Assembly (NCBI RefSeq): GCF_017873855.1
Contig: NZ_JAGGKR010000001.1
Span: 806,001 to 870,000 of the forward strand
DNA length: 64,000 bases
From: Methanolinea mesophila
GTDB lineage: Archaea > Halobacteriota > Methanomicrobia > Methanomicrobiales > Methanospirillaceae
Direction: 5' to 3'
The notes below the pieces were generated by a model. The model ran no database searches. It saw nothing but the letters and a program-made list of their open reading frames with translations, and was not told the DNA's origin. Both the position numbers and the translations under genes were made by a program. Below, in pieces: positions 18,423 through 25,464 of this stretch. Numbering within the stretch: the first letter of the stretch is position 1; the number at the start of each line of letters is the position of its first letter.

Positions 18423-19070
18423 ATGGGCACTAGGAAGGACCCCCCGCTCGTGAAGGACCAGACCTACATGGTCCGCCGGGAGGGAGTGACCCACGTGGTG
18501 AGCGAGAACTACTCCTACAAGAGCGACACCTACTATACCATCCTCTCCCAGGAGATGAAAGGGGTGGCGATCGCGCCAACGAGCCAGTCGGTGCTGGACG
18601 CGGGCGTGGTCCCCATATGCCTGGAGAAGGCCCGGCTCGCGGGTATCAGGGTCTGCGAGTGGGGAATCTCCCATTCCTACGTCCCGTTTCCCGCACTCCT
18701 CTACGGGATCAATTATTTCGCCACGTCTTCGGACTACCACCCGGTCGCGGGCCCCGACGAGACCAAAGCGGCGATAAAACACGTGACCAACTGTGGAAAA
18801 TATCCCTTCTGCTACCAGGGGCTCGGGGATGGGGACTACATCCACCGGGTCCACTCCGTATTCGGGAGGGTCACCACCGAAGACCCAGGTCTCTCCCGCC
18901 TCGCAGGAGAGATCTACGACCTCTTCGGAATCCCCCTCCAGACCCTGGTGGTCCGTGAGAGGGCTGGGGAATATGCGTTCTCTTCCCTTGCTCCGTGCCG
19001 TTACTCGGCCCTCTCCCGGGATGAGAAGACGCTGCTCCATGCATATATCGAACGCCAGGAGTTCCTATGA
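18423..19070 (+). CDS. RLAN domain protein (RimK-like ATP-grasp N-terminal domain as separate gene)
   Basis: This 215-residue protein has the pattern of the RLAN domain, normally the N-terminal half of a RimK-type ATP-grasp enzyme: VVSENYSYKSDTYYTILSQE near residues 25-45, and FGIPLQTLVVRERAGEYAFS near the end. It contains conserved Cys/His positions (CEWGISHSY, NCGKYPFCYQG) that might bind a metal. The ATP-grasp part follows as a separate gene through an ATGA overlap, so the usual fusion is split here. The start ATG 18423 has a GGGAG site. It probably shapes substrate recognition for the ligase; its substrate is unknown. Confidence 0.72.
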   Translation: MGTRKDPPLVKDQTYMVRREGVTHVVSENYSYKSDTYYTILSQEMKGVAIAPTSQSVLDAGVVPICLEKARLAGIRVCEWGISHSYVPFPALLYGINYFATSSDYHPVAGPDETKAAIKHVTNCGKYPFCYQGLGDGDYIHRVHSVFGRVTTEDPGLSRLAGEIYDLFGIPLQTLVVRERAGEYAFSSLAPCRYSALSRDEKTLLHAYIERQEFL

Positions 19071-19939
19071 GCAGGCTCGGCATATTTGTGGACAGAAAGA
19101 CCCTCTCTTCAGCCGAGCAGCTCACCGCCCTCATCCACTGCCGGGACGTGGCAGAGGCGATGGGGCACTCCGTGGAGTTCATCTTCCCGGTGGACATCCA
19201 CCGTATCCCCCAGATGGACGCCCTCTTCATCCGGGCACGGACCGACCCGATGAACGTCACCTACGTCGCCGCCAGGATGGCCAGCTTCCATGACATCCCG
19301 GTGATCGACGACCCACGGTCTATCCGGGTCTGCTCAGATAAGATCAACATGTACTGCCAGCTGATGAAGAAAGGGGTCTCGATCCCCCGGACGATCTTCC
19401 TCTCCCGTCACGAGCTCTCCCCGGAAAAGGCGGAGGAGCTCTTCGGTGAGCTGGGACGCCCCCTGGTGATAAAAGAGCCGTCCACCTCGTTCTCTCTCCG
19501 GGTCGAGAAGGTGCAGGACACGGCGGAGTTCATGCGGGTCTCCCGGAGGTTTTCCAAGCTCTCAGACTGGATCGTGGTCCAGCAGTTCGTGGAGAGCCAG
19601 TACGACTGGAGGATCGGGGTGCTCGGCGGGGAACTGCTCTATGCCTGCAAGTACACCATCCCCACCACCACGTTCAAGATCCAGGCCTCCGTGAACGGGC
19701 ACGTGGTCTATTGCGACGTGCTGAGCGTCCCCCCGGAGGAGATCCCTCCCGACGTGCTCGACCTCGGGCTCGAGGCGGGGAACGCGATCGGCAACGGGCT
19801 CTACGGGGTGGATATCAAGAAGGCCGACGGGCACGCCTGCGTGATCGAGGTGAATGACAACCCCTCCCTGGAGAGCGGGGAGGACGCGCACTATCCCCTG
19901 GTCTACCGGAAGATCGTCGGGCACCTCCTGGGAGCGTGA
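19067..19939 (+). CDS. RimK-type ATP-grasp ligase
   Basis: The 290-residue protein has the ATP-grasp signature: LVIKEPSTSFSLRV for the nucleotide-binding lysine, DWRIGVLGGELLYACKY in the central domain, and VIEVNDNPSLESGEDA with the metal-binding Glu/Asn residues near the end. RimK-like enzymes join an amino acid to a carboxylate activated by ATP. It overlaps the RLAN gene by 4 nt (ATGA) and is followed by the YkgJ-type gene after 2 nt. Together with the GCS2-type ligase this suggests two amide-forming steps in one pathway. The substrate cannot be read from sequence. Confidence 0.88.
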   Translation: MSRLGIFVDRKTLSSAEQLTALIHCRDVAEAMGHSVEFIFPVDIHRIPQMDALFIRARTDPMNVTYVAARMASFHDIPVIDDPRSIRVCSDKINMYCQLMKKGVSIPRTIFLSRHELSPEKAEELFGELGRPLVIKEPSTSFSLRVEKVQDTAEFMRVSRRFSKLSDWIVVQQFVESQYDWRIGVLGGELLYACKYTIPTTTFKIQASVNGHVVYCDVLSVPPEEIPPDVLDLGLEAGNAIGNGLYGVDIKKADGHACVIEVNDNPSLESGEDAHYPLVYRKIVGHLLGA

Positions 19940-19941
19940 AC

Positions 19942-20439
19942 ATGGACGAGGACTGGCTGCTTACCGCCGAGGCCATCTGTTGTGACTGCGGGGGGCGGTG
20001 CTGCCACGGCGCCCACCCGCCGCTTTCCCCCTCCCGGAGGACCCTTATCACCTCCCGGGGCGTGGGAAACGGGAACATCGAGTTCACGGGATACCACCGG
20101 ATGGCGGTTGACGAACGGGGCTGGTGCACCATGTTCCGGGAAGGGAGGTGCGCAATCCACTGCATCAAGCCCGAGACCTGCATCGCGGGCCCGTTCACCT
20201 TCGATATCAGGGACGGGATGCTCGAGATCTACTTGAAACACGAGGGCATCTGCCCCCTCGCGGGGTTGTTCCGGCGGACTCCGGGGGCGTACAGGGTCCA
20301 TTACGACCGGGCTGTCCATGAGATCTCCCGCCTGGTCAGGGATCTCCCGGCGGCCGAGCTCGCAATAGTGCTCCGGATCGATGAACCCGAGACCGATAAG
20401 GTGGCAGAGATCCCCCTGGAGGCGTTCTCACGGAACTGA
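19942..20439 (+). CDS. YkgJ-family cysteine-cluster protein
   Basis: From ATG 19942 the protein has 165 residues. The N-terminal CCDCGGRCC and the later RCAIHCIKPETCIAGP and HEGICPLAG segments form the cysteine cluster of the YkgJ/Fe-Zn-chelating family, thought to bind zinc or iron. It sits between the ATP-grasp and the GCS2-type genes, so it may act on, or deliver metal to, their product. The GTG at 19936 lies within the ATP-grasp gene and is a less likely start. Function in this operon is inferred from position only. Confidence 0.82.
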   Translation: MDEDWLLTAEAICCDCGGRCCHGAHPPLSPSRRTLITSRGVGNGNIEFTGYHRMAVDERGWCTMFREGRCAIHCIKPETCIAGPFTFDIRDGMLEIYLKHEGICPLAGLFRRTPGAYRVHYDRAVHEISRLVRDLPAAELAIVLRIDEPETDKVAEIPLEAFSRN

Positions 20440-21545
20440 TCGGCACCGAGCATGAATACTCCATCAACGGCCCTGATTATACCCCGTTGCCTTGTTCCGA
20501 TACGATTCTCGCGGAAGTTGCAGGATACCCTGCGGACGAGACCCCGTTCTCCGGGGTGCTGCTCGGAAAAGAACTGCAGAAGACGGTGATCGAGTTCATA
20601 CCGCCGGCACCGGCCCGGAACGTCCCCGAACTGGAGGCGAGCCTCCTCCCCGGTATTGAGGGGTTCTTCTCCCGCTTCGGGTCCCGGTACTCCCTGCTCG
20701 GCCTCGGCATGCACCCCCTGCTCACTCTGGACCAGACCTCGGTCTGGGACCACGGGGAGCATGAGTACTACCAGGCCTACGACCGGATCTTCGGGCTCCG
20801 CCAGCACGGGTGGCTCAATATCCAGGCGCTGCAGATCAACCTCTCCTACCGGGACACCGGCCACCTCGTGTGGCTCTACAACCGTGTGAGGGCGCTCATT
20901 CCATACCTGGTCGCCATCACCGCGGCATCACCCTTCGTCGAGGGAAGACCTACCGGCCTTGCGGATAACCGGCTCCGGTATTACCGGGAGAACCAGGCGA
21001 GGATCCCGGAGATCTGCGAGAACATCATCCCGGAACGGCTGCGATCCCTCCAGGACTATCTCGATTCCCTGGAGCGGATTTACGGTGCGCTCCGGCGTCT
21101 CGACGGGGATATCCTCTGCGACGAGTGGGTCGCCTCCCGGGGGCTGATCGTCCGTTTCTCCCGCCCCTGCATCGAGATCAAGGCCCTGGACGAGCAGGAA
21201 TGCGTGCGATCCGACATGGCGGTCTGCGCATTCGTCCGGGCGCTGGTGTCCTGCCGGGACCTGTCACTGGAGGAGGACCGCGACGCCCTCGTGGAGCTCA
21301 CCGGGAAGGCGATGGAAGGCGGGACTGCCGCACTTCGCCCGGAACTCCGCGCCCTGTACCGGAAGGCCTGCAGGGCCGCGACGGACGAGGAGCGAAGGTA
21401 CCTTCCCTACATAGAGAGGAGGATCGAGTCCGGAAGCCTGGCGGAACAGATGGTGAGGGAGGCACGGAACGAAGGCTCGATCAGGGCCCTCCTCCCCGGG
21501 CTCGCAGGGTCGCTCCGGACAAACGAACCGTGGATCAGCCGGTGA
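20436..21545 (+). CDS. GCS2-family glutamate-cysteine ligase-like enzyme, non-canonical start
   Basis: The protein matches the carboxylate-amine ligase (GCS2) fold: IGTEHEYSIN with the metal/glutamate-binding ExE motif at the very N-terminus, LGLGMHPLLT, and NIQALQINLSY in the middle. The conserved start IGTEHEYS lies upstream of TTG 20487, the first usual initiation codon in this frame, and no ATG, GTG or TTG precedes it. The only plausible start is CTG 20436, whose last two bases form the stop of the previous gene (CTGA overlap), with GGAGG at 20418-20422; ACG 20430 is the alternative. Length would be 369 residues. It probably makes a gamma-glutamyl or similar amide bond. Confidence 0.82.
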   Translation: MIGTEHEYSINGPDYTPLPCSDTILAEVAGYPADETPFSGVLLGKELQKTVIEFIPPAPARNVPELEASLLPGIEGFFSRFGSRYSLLGLGMHPLLTLDQTSVWDHGEHEYYQAYDRIFGLRQHGWLNIQALQINLSYRDTGHLVWLYNRVRALIPYLVAITAASPFVEGRPTGLADNRLRYYRENQARIPEICENIIPERLRSLQDYLDSLERIYGALRRLDGDILCDEWVASRGLIVRFSRPCIEIKALDEQECVRSDMAVCAFVRALVSCRDLSLEEDRDALVELTGKAMEGGTAALRPELRALYRKACRAATDEERRYLPYIERRIESGSLAEQMVREARNEGSIRALLPGLAGSLRTNEPWISR

Positions 21546-22839
21546 CCGCACCTTTTTTCTTGAAGAAATATGCGATAAGCACTCCGATAACAATGATCCC
21601 GACGCCCAGGGCGATCACCGGGAGAGTGAGCTGGGCGATCATGAATACGCTCGACAGGATTCCCAGGACCGGGAGGACCGGGAGCCGTCCGATCGCGAGG
21701 GGGATGCGGAACGGCCGCTCGAGGCCGGGACTCCTGTACCGGAGGACGATAACCGTCGCGTTGATCACCAGGAAGGTGACGAAGAGGAGGAAATTGGTCA
21801 CGTTGGCGACCATGCCGAGGTCCCCGGGGACGGTGAAGCATATCGCCGCCACGCTGACCCCGAGCACCGCCACCCAGGGAGTCCTTCTCCCGGGGTGGAC
21901 GAACGCGATCTGTTCCGGGAGAGAGCCCGCGCTTGCCATCCCGTAGGTGATCTGGGAGGCCGCGAGGAGCATCAGGAGCACGGTGTTGGAGGTGGCGAAG
22001 AGGGCCACCACCGAGATCACCACCGAGGCGTCGGCCCCCCAGGCGGCCCCGGCTACGGTGACGAACGGCGCATCGGATGCAGACAGGGCCTCCCATCCCA
22101 CCACGCTCACCGCGGAGATTGAGACCAGCACATAGAGCACGATGCAGATCCCGATCGCGAGCATGAGCGCCCGGGGAATCACCGTGGCCGGTTTCCTGGT
22201 CTCGTCCGCGAACTTCACCATCTCCTCGAATCCCATGAACGCGAAGAAGACCAGTGCCGCGGCGGAGAACAGGCCCTGGACCCCGAGCGGCATCTCCAGG
22301 TAGTCGATGCTCCCCAGGAACGGGATTCCGGCAATGATGATCGCCACCAGCCCGCCCGCCTCGACAATGGTGAAGGAGATCGCCAGCCAGGCGGTCTCCC
22401 GGATCCCGTAAAGGAGGATCGCCGCCAACACGAGGATGATCCCCACCCCCGGGAGGAACGCGGGCATGGGGAACAGCGCCTGGAAATAGCCGGAGAACGC
22501 GATGGCCACCGTCGCAGCACCCACCACCCCGGAGAAGATGATCAGCCACCCGATGAGGAATGCTGCCTCGGGCCCGAACCCCTGCCGGGTATACTCGTAC
22601 TCGGCGGCGGCCCGGGGATACATCGAAGAGAGTTCGGCGTAGGAGAAACAGGTGAGCAGGGCCACCACGGCGGAGAACCCGAACGCGAGCCAGACCGCGT
22701 TCCCGGCGAGCCCTGCGGCCTCGCCGATGAGGGCGTAGATCCCCGCCCCGAGAATAATTCCCACCCCGGCCGCGGTGACCTGGAGCAGCCCGAGCTCGCG
22801 TTTCAGTGCCGGCCGGGCAGGGGGGCTCCCTCCTGTCAT
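21535..22839 (-). CDS. APC-family amino acid permease
   Basis: The 434-residue protein has about 12 membrane helices and the unwound first-helix motif GVGIILGAGIYALIG typical of the APC superfamily, plus the GFEEMVKFADE segment found in helix 6-7 of cationic or branched amino acid transporters. It carries an amino acid across the membrane, probably by proton coupling. Its stop overlaps the convergent GCS2-type gene by 11 nt; being on the other strand it is not part of that operon, although a functional link to the ligases is possible. ATG 22839 is the start. Confidence 0.9.
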   Translation of the reverse strand: MTGGSPPARPALKRELGLLQVTAAGVGIILGAGIYALIGEAAGLAGNAVWLAFGFSAVVALLTCFSYAELSSMYPRAAAEYEYTRQGFGPEAAFLIGWLIIFSGVVGAATVAIAFSGYFQALFPMPAFLPGVGIILVLAAILLYGIRETAWLAISFTIVEAGGLVAIIIAGIPFLGSIDYLEMPLGVQGLFSAAALVFFAFMGFEEMVKFADETRKPATVIPRALMLAIGICIVLYVLVSISAVSVVGWEALSASDAPFVTVAGAAWGADASVVISVVALFATSNTVLLMLLAASQITYGMASAGSLPEQIAFVHPGRRTPWVAVLGVSVAAICFTVPGDLGMVANVTNFLLFVTFLVINATVIVLRYRSPGLERPFRIPLAIGRLPVLPVLGILSSVFMIAQLTLPVIALGVGIIVIGVLIAYFFKKKGAVTG

Positions 22840-23702: not shown

Positions 23703-25370
23703 TCAGGCGATCTCCTGGATCATCCGCCCGTTCCGGAAGATGGAGATCTTTCCCCCGCTCTGGGACACCACGATCCCGATCGCCCCGGTCACCATGGTGA
23801 TCGCCGCCACCGAGGAGTGCCGGGTTCCGAGCCCCTTCGGTATCCCCACCTCGTGGGTATCGATGGTGATGTACCGGGCCGCGGCCTCGATAAGACCGTC
23901 GCCCCGGACCACGAACGCCCCGTCCAGCTGGGCGAGCTCTTTGACGTTCTCCTTGATGTCGTGGTTCACGATCATCCGGTCTTCGGTGCGGTGCCCTGCG
24001 AAGGGGTTCAGGATCAGCTGCTTCGACTTCTGGAGCACATTCTCGGTATCCCCGATGATGAACGCCGTCCCGAGCTGTTTGCCTTCCCGTCCCTCCTTGG
24101 CGATCTCCAGGCAGATGTTGAACACCGCGTCGAAGACCTCGTCGGTGATGTCGGTCCCGGATATCACCCGGTCCTTCCACATCGCGGTGCTGATCCTTTT
24201 CCGGTCTCTGCCGGAGTGGTCGGTGATGTCGTGCCCGATGCACACGATCTCCCTGATCCGCCCGTCAGGTTCGCGGACGGCCCTGTTCACCCAGGCGATC
24301 CATACCGGTTCCCCGTCGCGGAGGACCATCTCGTTGATCCGGATGGCGGAGTTCTCGCCGTTCATGTGCATGTCCTGCACGAACCCGGTCACCTCAAGGT
24401 TCCGCCGCCCCTCGGGTATCAGGGTCCCGACCACGTTCTTCCCCATGATCTCCGGGGCCGAATAGCCGAAGAAGGACTGGGCGAACTTGTTGAAGAAAGT
24501 GATGGTGCCCTCCGGATCGAGCTTCATGATGATGCTCCCCGAGCTTTGCAGCATCTCCCGGTAGCGGAGGTCGCTCTCCTTGACCATCTCCTCGAGGCGG
24601 ACCTTCTCGCTCTGGTCCTCGCATACCAGGACCTGTCCACGGGAGTGGTCGTGGAGGTCGGCGAGCCGGATCCTGGTCCTGCAGGGTATCACCGTTCCGT
24701 CCTTCTTCTTCATCCGGGTATCGGAGAACCCCCAGCCCTCCTCGTCCACCCGGATGGTCATCTCCCGGAACGCACGGTCGCACTCTTCCTTGTCGGGGAA
24801 AAGCGAGAGCGCGGACTTCCCGGCGAGCGCTCCCTCCTCGTATCCCAGGCCCCGGGTCATGGCGCCGTTCACCCAGTCGAGGACCGAGGAGTGCATCTGG
24901 CATACCCACAGGGGGGTGGCGTTCAGGATCGCGTCGAGGGTGTCGCACCGGGCGGAGAGGTCCCGTTCGATCTTCTTCCGCATCACGGCCTGGTGCACGA
25001 GGTCGCGGAGTTCCGCAACCTGGGGCCGCGAGCTGCCCCTTGGGAGGGGGGACTCCCCTGCGGCGTTAAGGTCTTCCAGCACGAGCCGGTCGCCCCGTCG
25101 GGAATAGAGGATGAAGGGGCTGGTGCTCCCCTGGGACTTCAGGAACCGGAGGAGCTCTATCCCGTTCATGTCGTCGAGGAACTCTATCCCGTTCACCTCG
25201 GGGATCTGGTAATATGAGACGATGATGTCGTAATTCCTGTTCTTCAGGATCTCCAGGGCCTGCTTCACGGAATGTACCGCATCCACCCTCACCTCGCCCA
25301 TCTTCGCGAGGTACGACCGGGCCCCCTCGATGAGTTCGGTGTTATCGTGTACCAGCAGAACCGTGATCAC
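23703..25370 (-). CDS. Receiver-like / PAS / PAS / diadenylate cyclase (DacZ-type) protein
   Basis: GTG 25370 is chosen because the receiver fold begins there (MITVLLVHDN); TTG 25403 is possible. The 555-residue protein has a receiver-like domain (1-110) with acidic residues but Tyr in place of the phosphoacceptor Asp (VSYYQIP, where active receivers have VSDYQMP), two PAS domains (about 145-255 and 275-390), then a DAC domain. The latter shows QLDGAFVVRGDG (DGA motif near residue 483) and GTRHSS (near 515-520; the third residue of the canonical RHR is Ser). It would make cyclic di-AMP from two ATP in response to a sensed signal. The gene is alone on its transcript. Confidence 0.88.
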   Translation of the reverse strand: MITVLLVHDNTELIEGARSYLAKMGEVRVDAVHSVKQALEILKNRNYDIIVSYYQIPEVNGIEFLDDMNGIELLRFLKSQGSTSPFILYSRRGDRLVLEDLNAAGESPLPRGSSRPQVAELRDLVHQAVMRKKIERDLSARCDTLDAILNATPLWVCQMHSSVLDWVNGAMTRGLGYEEGALAGKSALSLFPDKEECDRAFREMTIRVDEEGWGFSDTRMKKKDGTVIPCRTRIRLADLHDHSRGQVLVCEDQSEKVRLEEMVKESDLRYREMLQSSGSIIMKLDPEGTITFFNKFAQSFFGYSAPEIMGKNVVGTLIPEGRRNLEVTGFVQDMHMNGENSAIRINEMVLRDGEPVWIAWVNRAVREPDGRIREIVCIGHDITDHSGRDRKRISTAMWKDRVISGTDITDEVFDAVFNICLEIAKEGREGKQLGTAFIIGDTENVLQKSKQLILNPFAGHRTEDRMIVNHDIKENVKELAQLDGAFVVRGDGLIEAAARYITIDTHEVGIPKGLGTRHSSVAAITMVTGAIGIVVSQSGGKISIFRNGRMIQEIA

Positions 25371-25464
25371 TTCGGCTGTCCCCCGGACCCGTCGCCGGGC
25401 CAAAATATGAGATAAATTAGGATGGATCAGGATTAAATAATTATTGAACCGCTGGTTTCAGTTC

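Follow-up and report, generated by a model that had tools for sequence, protein, structure and literature searches.

A conserved RLAN, ATP-grasp, YkgJ and GCS2 gene cluster of Methanolinea mesophila and its possible role in the synthesis of a gamma-glutamyl-type compound

A stretch of 64,000 nucleotides from the archaeon Methanolinea mesophila (hereafter the window; NCBI RefSeq assembly GCF_017873855.1, contig NZ_JAGGKR010000001.1, positions 806,001–870,000 of the forward strand) carries at 18423–21545 four closely packed genes for an RLAN protein, a RimK-type ATP-grasp ligase, a CxxCxxCC/YkgJ-type cysteine-cluster protein and a GCS2 carboxylate-amine ligase. Given that their neighbourhood is conserved and their distribution across genomes is nested, we conclude that the cluster is a genuine functional unit (that is, an RLAN and ATP-grasp core joined by another ligase and, in some genomes, by a metal-cluster protein). 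We propose, with a probability of about one half, that this unit makes a small peptide of the gamma-glutamyl type or an amino-acid amide in a two-step synthesis. As a homologous RLAN-RimK/GCS2 set exists in bacteria, the archaeal form, in which RLAN is split off and YkgJ is added, is a variant of a known but functionally uncharacterised type of system rather than a new type.

All four genes lie on the + strand and, as the initial annotation had described, overlap or nearly do so. The stand-alone RLAN gene (18423..19070, 215 amino acids (aa)) shares an ATGA at 19067 with the ATP-grasp gene (19067..19939, 290 aa), a 2-nucleotide gap separates the latter from the ATG at 19942 of ykgJ (19942..20439; alternative start GTG 19936), and GCS2 (20436..21545, 369 aa) probably begins at a CTG that overlaps the ykgJ stop codon. 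The four domain identities given in that annotation also hold, each protein passing its Pfam cut-off: RLAN (PF14401, E = 2e-8, 34.3 bits against a cut-off of 25), RimK ATP-grasp (PF08443, E = 1e-8), CxxCxxCC (PF03692, E = 2e-6, 28.9 bits against 23) and GCS2 (PF04107, E = 5e-35, 121.6 bits against 21, with the catalytic glutamate motifs present). The 2.66-Mb genome (two contigs) holds a single copy of GCS2, of RLAN, of the ATP-grasp of this clade and of the YkgJ of this subfamily.

In 59 of the best 80 GCS2-related loci in GTDB, RLAN, ATP-grasp, YkgJ and GCS2 follow one another in identical order on one strand, and several of the loci that are not complete are cut by contig ends; a lack of neighbourhood conservation in relatives, named beforehand as grounds for giving up the operon, was thus not what we found. 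The relatives of GCS2 (45–66% identity) belong to Methanoregulaceae, Methanothrix-type genomes, Archaeoglobi, Methanomassiliicoccales and one Methanoperedens metagenome-assembled genome (MAG). Archaeoglobi hold two pairs (RLAN/ATP-grasp and YkgJ/GCS2), mostly within ~4 kb and in other orders or on other strands, and the Methanoperedens MAG (locus L011) has its ligase genes on opposite strands; because the rearranged genes are kept together in both, the linkage outlives rearrangement. In all five Methanomassiliicoccales genomes only YkgJ/GCS2 stand at the locus and RLAN lies elsewhere in the genome, adjoining an ATP-grasp gene in the genomes examined.

The conserved co-occurrence that the initial annotation had proposed looking for was found among 393 Halobacteriota genomes, in which strong matches were counted (E below 1e-50 for GCS2 and YkgJ). 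The YkgJ subfamily is present in 48 of these, the GCS2 clade in 51 and RLAN in 57; every YkgJ genome also carries GCS2 (48/48), and RLAN accompanies GCS2 in 50 of 51, the exception being a genome that is 73% complete. The unit is kept by 25 of the 33 sampled Methanoregulaceae, the eight without GCS2 missing RLAN and YkgJ too; twelve Methanothrix-type genomes, of one family, keep it as well. GCS2 and RLAN are kept with YkgJ missing in G049, G068 and the genomes of loci L007, L011, L024, L038 and L048, and RLAN occurs without GCS2 in seven genomes, with RLAN and ATP-grasp alone in Methanocella and others. Fisher tests of the co-distribution, uncorrected for relatedness, give p = 2e-54 when genomes are counted and 8e-17 when genera are. 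From this nesting we infer an order of steps, which suggests RLAN/ATP-grasp as the foundation, GCS2 as the second step and YkgJ as an optional addition. The earlier statement that the four genes must work together therefore agrees with the conserved neighbourhood and the nested co-distribution, but asks too much of YkgJ, missing from several genomes in which both ligases remain, and of the core as a part of the larger set, which also occurs alone.

Both of the ligases that the initial annotation took to form amide bonds have intact catalytic positions. Residues K92, K136, D249, E261 and N263 of the ATP-grasp protein are invariant across an alignment of 19 sequences, that from Legionella among them, and comprise what we take, from knowledge of the fold, to be the two ATP lysines and the D/E/N metal triad; its closest solved structures are RimK, LysX and ArgX. 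GCS2 keeps the GxExE, KELQK..E, Q/N, SPxxEG and ExxxxDxQE-type motifs together with additional Glu, Gln, Asn and Arg residues that do not vary, and its profile aligns with plant glutamate-cysteine ligase (GCL) from the first motif, GTEHEYS matching the first strand of the plant enzyme. Against the NCBIfam models, the ATP-grasp protein scores 75.6 bits for TIGR00768 (RimK family alpha-L-glutamate ligase; cut-off 143.4) and 50.7 bits for MptN (cut-off 350), and GCS2 scores at best 45.1 bits (TIGR02050; cut-off 176.4) among the glutamate-cysteine ligase/YbdK equivalogs. In the Methanothrix loci (L037, L053, L059 and others) the ATP-grasp protein bears a conserved C-terminal extension (GFEGEYGLGA...YKIDF, ~50 residues), which the Methanoregulaceae proteins lack.

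RLAN had been regarded as an accessory domain, a description that its predicted fold does not bear out. The AlphaFold2 model, built from 47 sequences (mean predicted local distance difference test (pLDDT) score 90), has ATP-grasp-fold proteins as its best 50 Foldseek matches in the PDB, led by LysX/ArgX, PsnB and RimK (E = 2.9e-9, probability 1.00). A second aligner (VIA) gives Z = 12.7 with a root-mean-square deviation of 4.7 Å over 194 residues (that is, nearly the whole domain), so that the predicted model has the ATP-grasp fold throughout. Only Y30, Y37, E44, P52, G74, P128 and P171 are invariant in 21 diverse RLAN sequences; among these there is no lysine, aspartate or asparagine, and hence neither a catalytic lysine nor a D/E/N set, the sole invariant glutamate (E44) lying in the N-terminal half. 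Given a match to the ATP-grasp fold and yet no invariant catalytic residue, the most economical reading of the model is that RLAN is an ATP-grasp that has shrunk and diverged far, has probably lost ATP binding and partners the active subunit, to which it is fused in bacteria. Among the papers searched, and by the terms used, none describes the RLAN domain or gives its accession; should RLAN prove to be a pseudo-ligase, a domain known by name only would gain a testable structural role, in bacteria as well.

The YkgJ protein has eight invariant cysteines in 15 sequences, with the spacing CxxCx3CC, and a KPETCxAGPFTFD motif kept across archaeal families. These cysteines fit a metal or iron–sulfur (Fe–S) site, in line with the metal binding thought probable at the outset. 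The PF03692-like cysteine motif of FliB (CX4CX3CC) binds [4Fe-4S] (PMC8598068), and by analogy YkgJ may hold such a cluster; whereas the cysteine cluster is common to FliB/YkgJ CxxCxxCC proteins, the protein described here forms a subfamily of its own, marked by its spacing and the KPETCxAGPFTFD motif. Its AlphaFold2 model (pLDDT 91) has no fold match or solved relative listed in the PDB.

Similar bacterial gene sets do exist, as had been stated. A Legionella adelaidensis plasmid (NZ_LR134436) encodes a fused RLAN-RimK, GCS2 and N-formylglutamate amidohydrolase (FGase) in one run, and Azospirillum has a GNAT-C39 variant of the RLAN-RimK/GCS2 set; bacterial sets of this type were reportedly predicted by Iyer et al. 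in 2009 to be peptide- or metabolite-making systems. RLAN and ATP-grasp are homologous to the bacterial protein (36% identity over 270 aa), as is GCS2 over its full length (27–32%), and the genes are adjacent in both, but the bacterial RLAN-RimK is one chain whereas the archaeal RLAN is a separate gene with an ATGA overlap, and the archaeal cluster has a CxxCxxCC protein in place of the amidohydrolase and is without GNAT/C39. FGase is not in the cluster, the only one of the genome being at C1:9860, ~816 kb away, and a search of the genomes presumed to be Archaeoglobus, Methanothrix and Methanocella found none. A Thermoplasmatota genome (L142, 5140-7859) encodes a bacterial-type fused RLAN-RimK with GCS2, and is one of only 2 of the 145 genomes sampled there with this GCS2, which suggests lateral transfer. 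RimK, LysX, ArgX, MptN and CofF share the ATP-grasp subfamily and the catalytic residues, but their cut-offs are far from reached and the ATP-grasp of the cluster is tied to RLAN by gene content.

In the two-step synthesis that we propose, RLAN and the ATP-grasp protein would form one ligase, in which RLAN, itself non-catalytic, would hold the substrate or give the active site its shape; activating a carboxylate with ATP and coupling it to an amine would fall to the RimK-type subunit. GCS2 would then add glutamate through the gamma-carboxyl using ATP, as glutamate-cysteine ligase does, and YkgJ, through a metal or [4Fe-4S] site held by its cysteines, may provide an optional last modification or a metal or redox step. 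We put forward only tentatively, as possible rather than probable, a more specific form in which RLAN, as a degenerate ATP-grasp subunit, is obligately paired with the RimK-like ligase in a pseudo-heterodimer; in methanogens and Archaeoglobi, this dimer, GCS2 and an Fe–S YkgJ would together make a hitherto undescribed gamma-glutamyl cofactor or a metabolite resembling a metallophore. Methanoregula- and Methanothrix-type archaea account for a large share of the methane from wetlands and digesters, and a small-molecule product would be an undescribed metabolite.

Several points weigh against this proposal. Both the ATP-grasp protein and GCS2 are far under every NCBIfam equivalog cut-off, and their substrates are for that reason not assignable; the sampled genomes are kin, so the Fisher p values overstate independence; the nested pattern is by itself no proof of step order; and the transporters beside the genes vary by lineage. 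Moreover, profile-profile comparison with hhalign gives a probability of 1–4% for RLAN against ATP-grasp, hardly above the GCS2 control, and because homology is thus undetected, a single predicted model carries the case for the RLAN fold.

Another conceivable function is that both ligases put glutamate or a peptide tag on a protein, following the logic of RimK on ribosomal protein S6 or of PafA, with YkgJ as a redox switch. The closest structural relatives of the ATP-grasp protein are themselves of this kind (RimK, LysX and ArgX act on ribosomal protein S6 or the carrier protein LysW), and the cluster is without a separate substrate-making enzyme. We nevertheless consider tagging unlikely, as the cluster holds neither a conserved small protein nor any ribosomal gene, the gap in Methanothrix contains only the ATP-grasp C-terminal extension and short non-coding sequence, and GCS2 is of the GshA/YbdK and not the PafA type. 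A CitMHS/ArsB-type transporter on the same strand beside GCS2 or ATP-grasp moreover recurs in several lineages (Archaeoglobi, L119, L125 and L014; those of L119 and L121 are 34% identical) and therefore favours a small molecule over a tagged protein.

Glutathione chemistry likewise joins a GCS-fold gamma-glutamyl ligase (plant or haloarchaeal GCL) to an ATP-grasp ligase (GshB), and the GTEHE motif and SPxxEG region of GCS2 align with plant GCL. The cluster could accordingly serve a low-molecular-weight thiol (in part one form of the gamma-glutamyl synthesis preferred here), with GCS2 making gamma-Glu-Cys, the ATP-grasp protein extending it as in GshA/GshB logic and YkgJ as redox or metal partner. 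A review that reports GshA-family matches in methanogens and Archaeoglobi and GshA/GshB-like pairs in Methanobacterium (PMC7278568) speaks for this, but a survey, in the form in which that review cites it, detected no glutathione or gamma-Glu-Cys in five unidentified methanogens. The ATP-grasp protein is also RimK-like rather than GshB, GCS2 reaches no known GCL equivalog or YbdK cut-off, RLAN and YkgJ are additional, and a pathway that starts with GshA does not predict RLAN and ATP-grasp without GCS2 in seven genomes, so that we hold a thiol to be more doubtful than tagging. Least probable is an osmolyte or stress peptide (that is, a dipeptide, zwitterionic or amidated, that salt stress would elicit), for which an amino acid permease and a cyclic-di-AMP protein near the cluster would belong to the same response. 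Both are conserved neighbours in Methanoregulaceae, and N-acetyltransferases adjoin RLAN-ATP-grasp in Methanoperedens-like and Azospirillum loci; yet permease and cyclase stand on the other strand in one family only, perhaps as plain synteny, and neither an amidase nor an aminotransferase was found in the cluster. A two-step gamma-glutamyl compound, ranking ahead of protein tagging and the thiol system, remains our best guess.

Two further candidates were set aside. A precursor-peptide system (ribosomally synthesized and post-translationally modified peptide, or graspetide) was discarded, since a conserved small ORF was not found and the Methanothrix gap holds the ATP-grasp extension. Replacement of MptN, CofF or LysX was rejected on scores far under their cut-offs, and is also disfavoured by the cluster genes of Methanomassiliicoccales, which to our knowledge lack the methanopterin-dependent pathway.

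The start of GCS2 as annotated initially, within the CTGA at 20436, is the most plausible choice from the sequence. The first ordinary in-frame start codon, TTG 20487, would drop the GTEHEYS motif, in which 18 relatives show no variation at G, E and E, and CTG 20436 is favoured as the nearest near-cognate start that keeps this catalytic N-terminal motif; a GGAGG inside ykgJ (20418..20422, + strand) is a possible ribosome-binding site for it. The relatives mostly have an ATG 1–2 codons upstream of the motif, where this gene reads ACG GAA CTG ATC, and the alternative may be that the codon was an ATG altered by a sequencing-type base error. A scan for sigma-70 promoters gave no match, a model that does not apply to archaeal promoters.

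Convergent to the cluster and outside its conserved core lies the APC amino acid permease (AA_permease_2; 21535..22839, − strand), placed there by the initial annotation as a possible substrate supplier. It recurs in ~17 distinct Methanoregulaceae loci; the association is seen in that family only, whereas the CitMHS/ArsB-type transporter recurs in more lineages. Beyond it, a protein with response-regulator, PAS and DisA-type diadenylate cyclase (DAC) domains (23703-25403, − strand), for which cyclic-di-AMP signalling is possible, is common to ~20 Methanoregulaceae loci. Because both genes are on the other strand and confined to one family, this neighbourhood may be plain synteny.

Elsewhere, GNAT acetyltransferases adjoin RLAN/ATP-grasp in Methanoperedens-like loci, the Azospirillum GNAT being fused to a C39 peptidase domain, and a DUF2111 gene stands beside GCS2 or GNAT/ATP-grasp in the former (L011 5515-5940, L117 3392-3796, L118 4053-4457). 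Methanoregula sp. SKADARSKE-2 (L081 3991-7008, L124 4720-7737) has frameshifts in RLAN, ATP-grasp and GCS2 with YkgJ intact, which may be decay or long-read errors, and a Methanomicrobiales MAG (L014 1221-4561) has ~3.3 kb of additional DNA, perhaps an insertion, between ATP-grasp and YkgJ.

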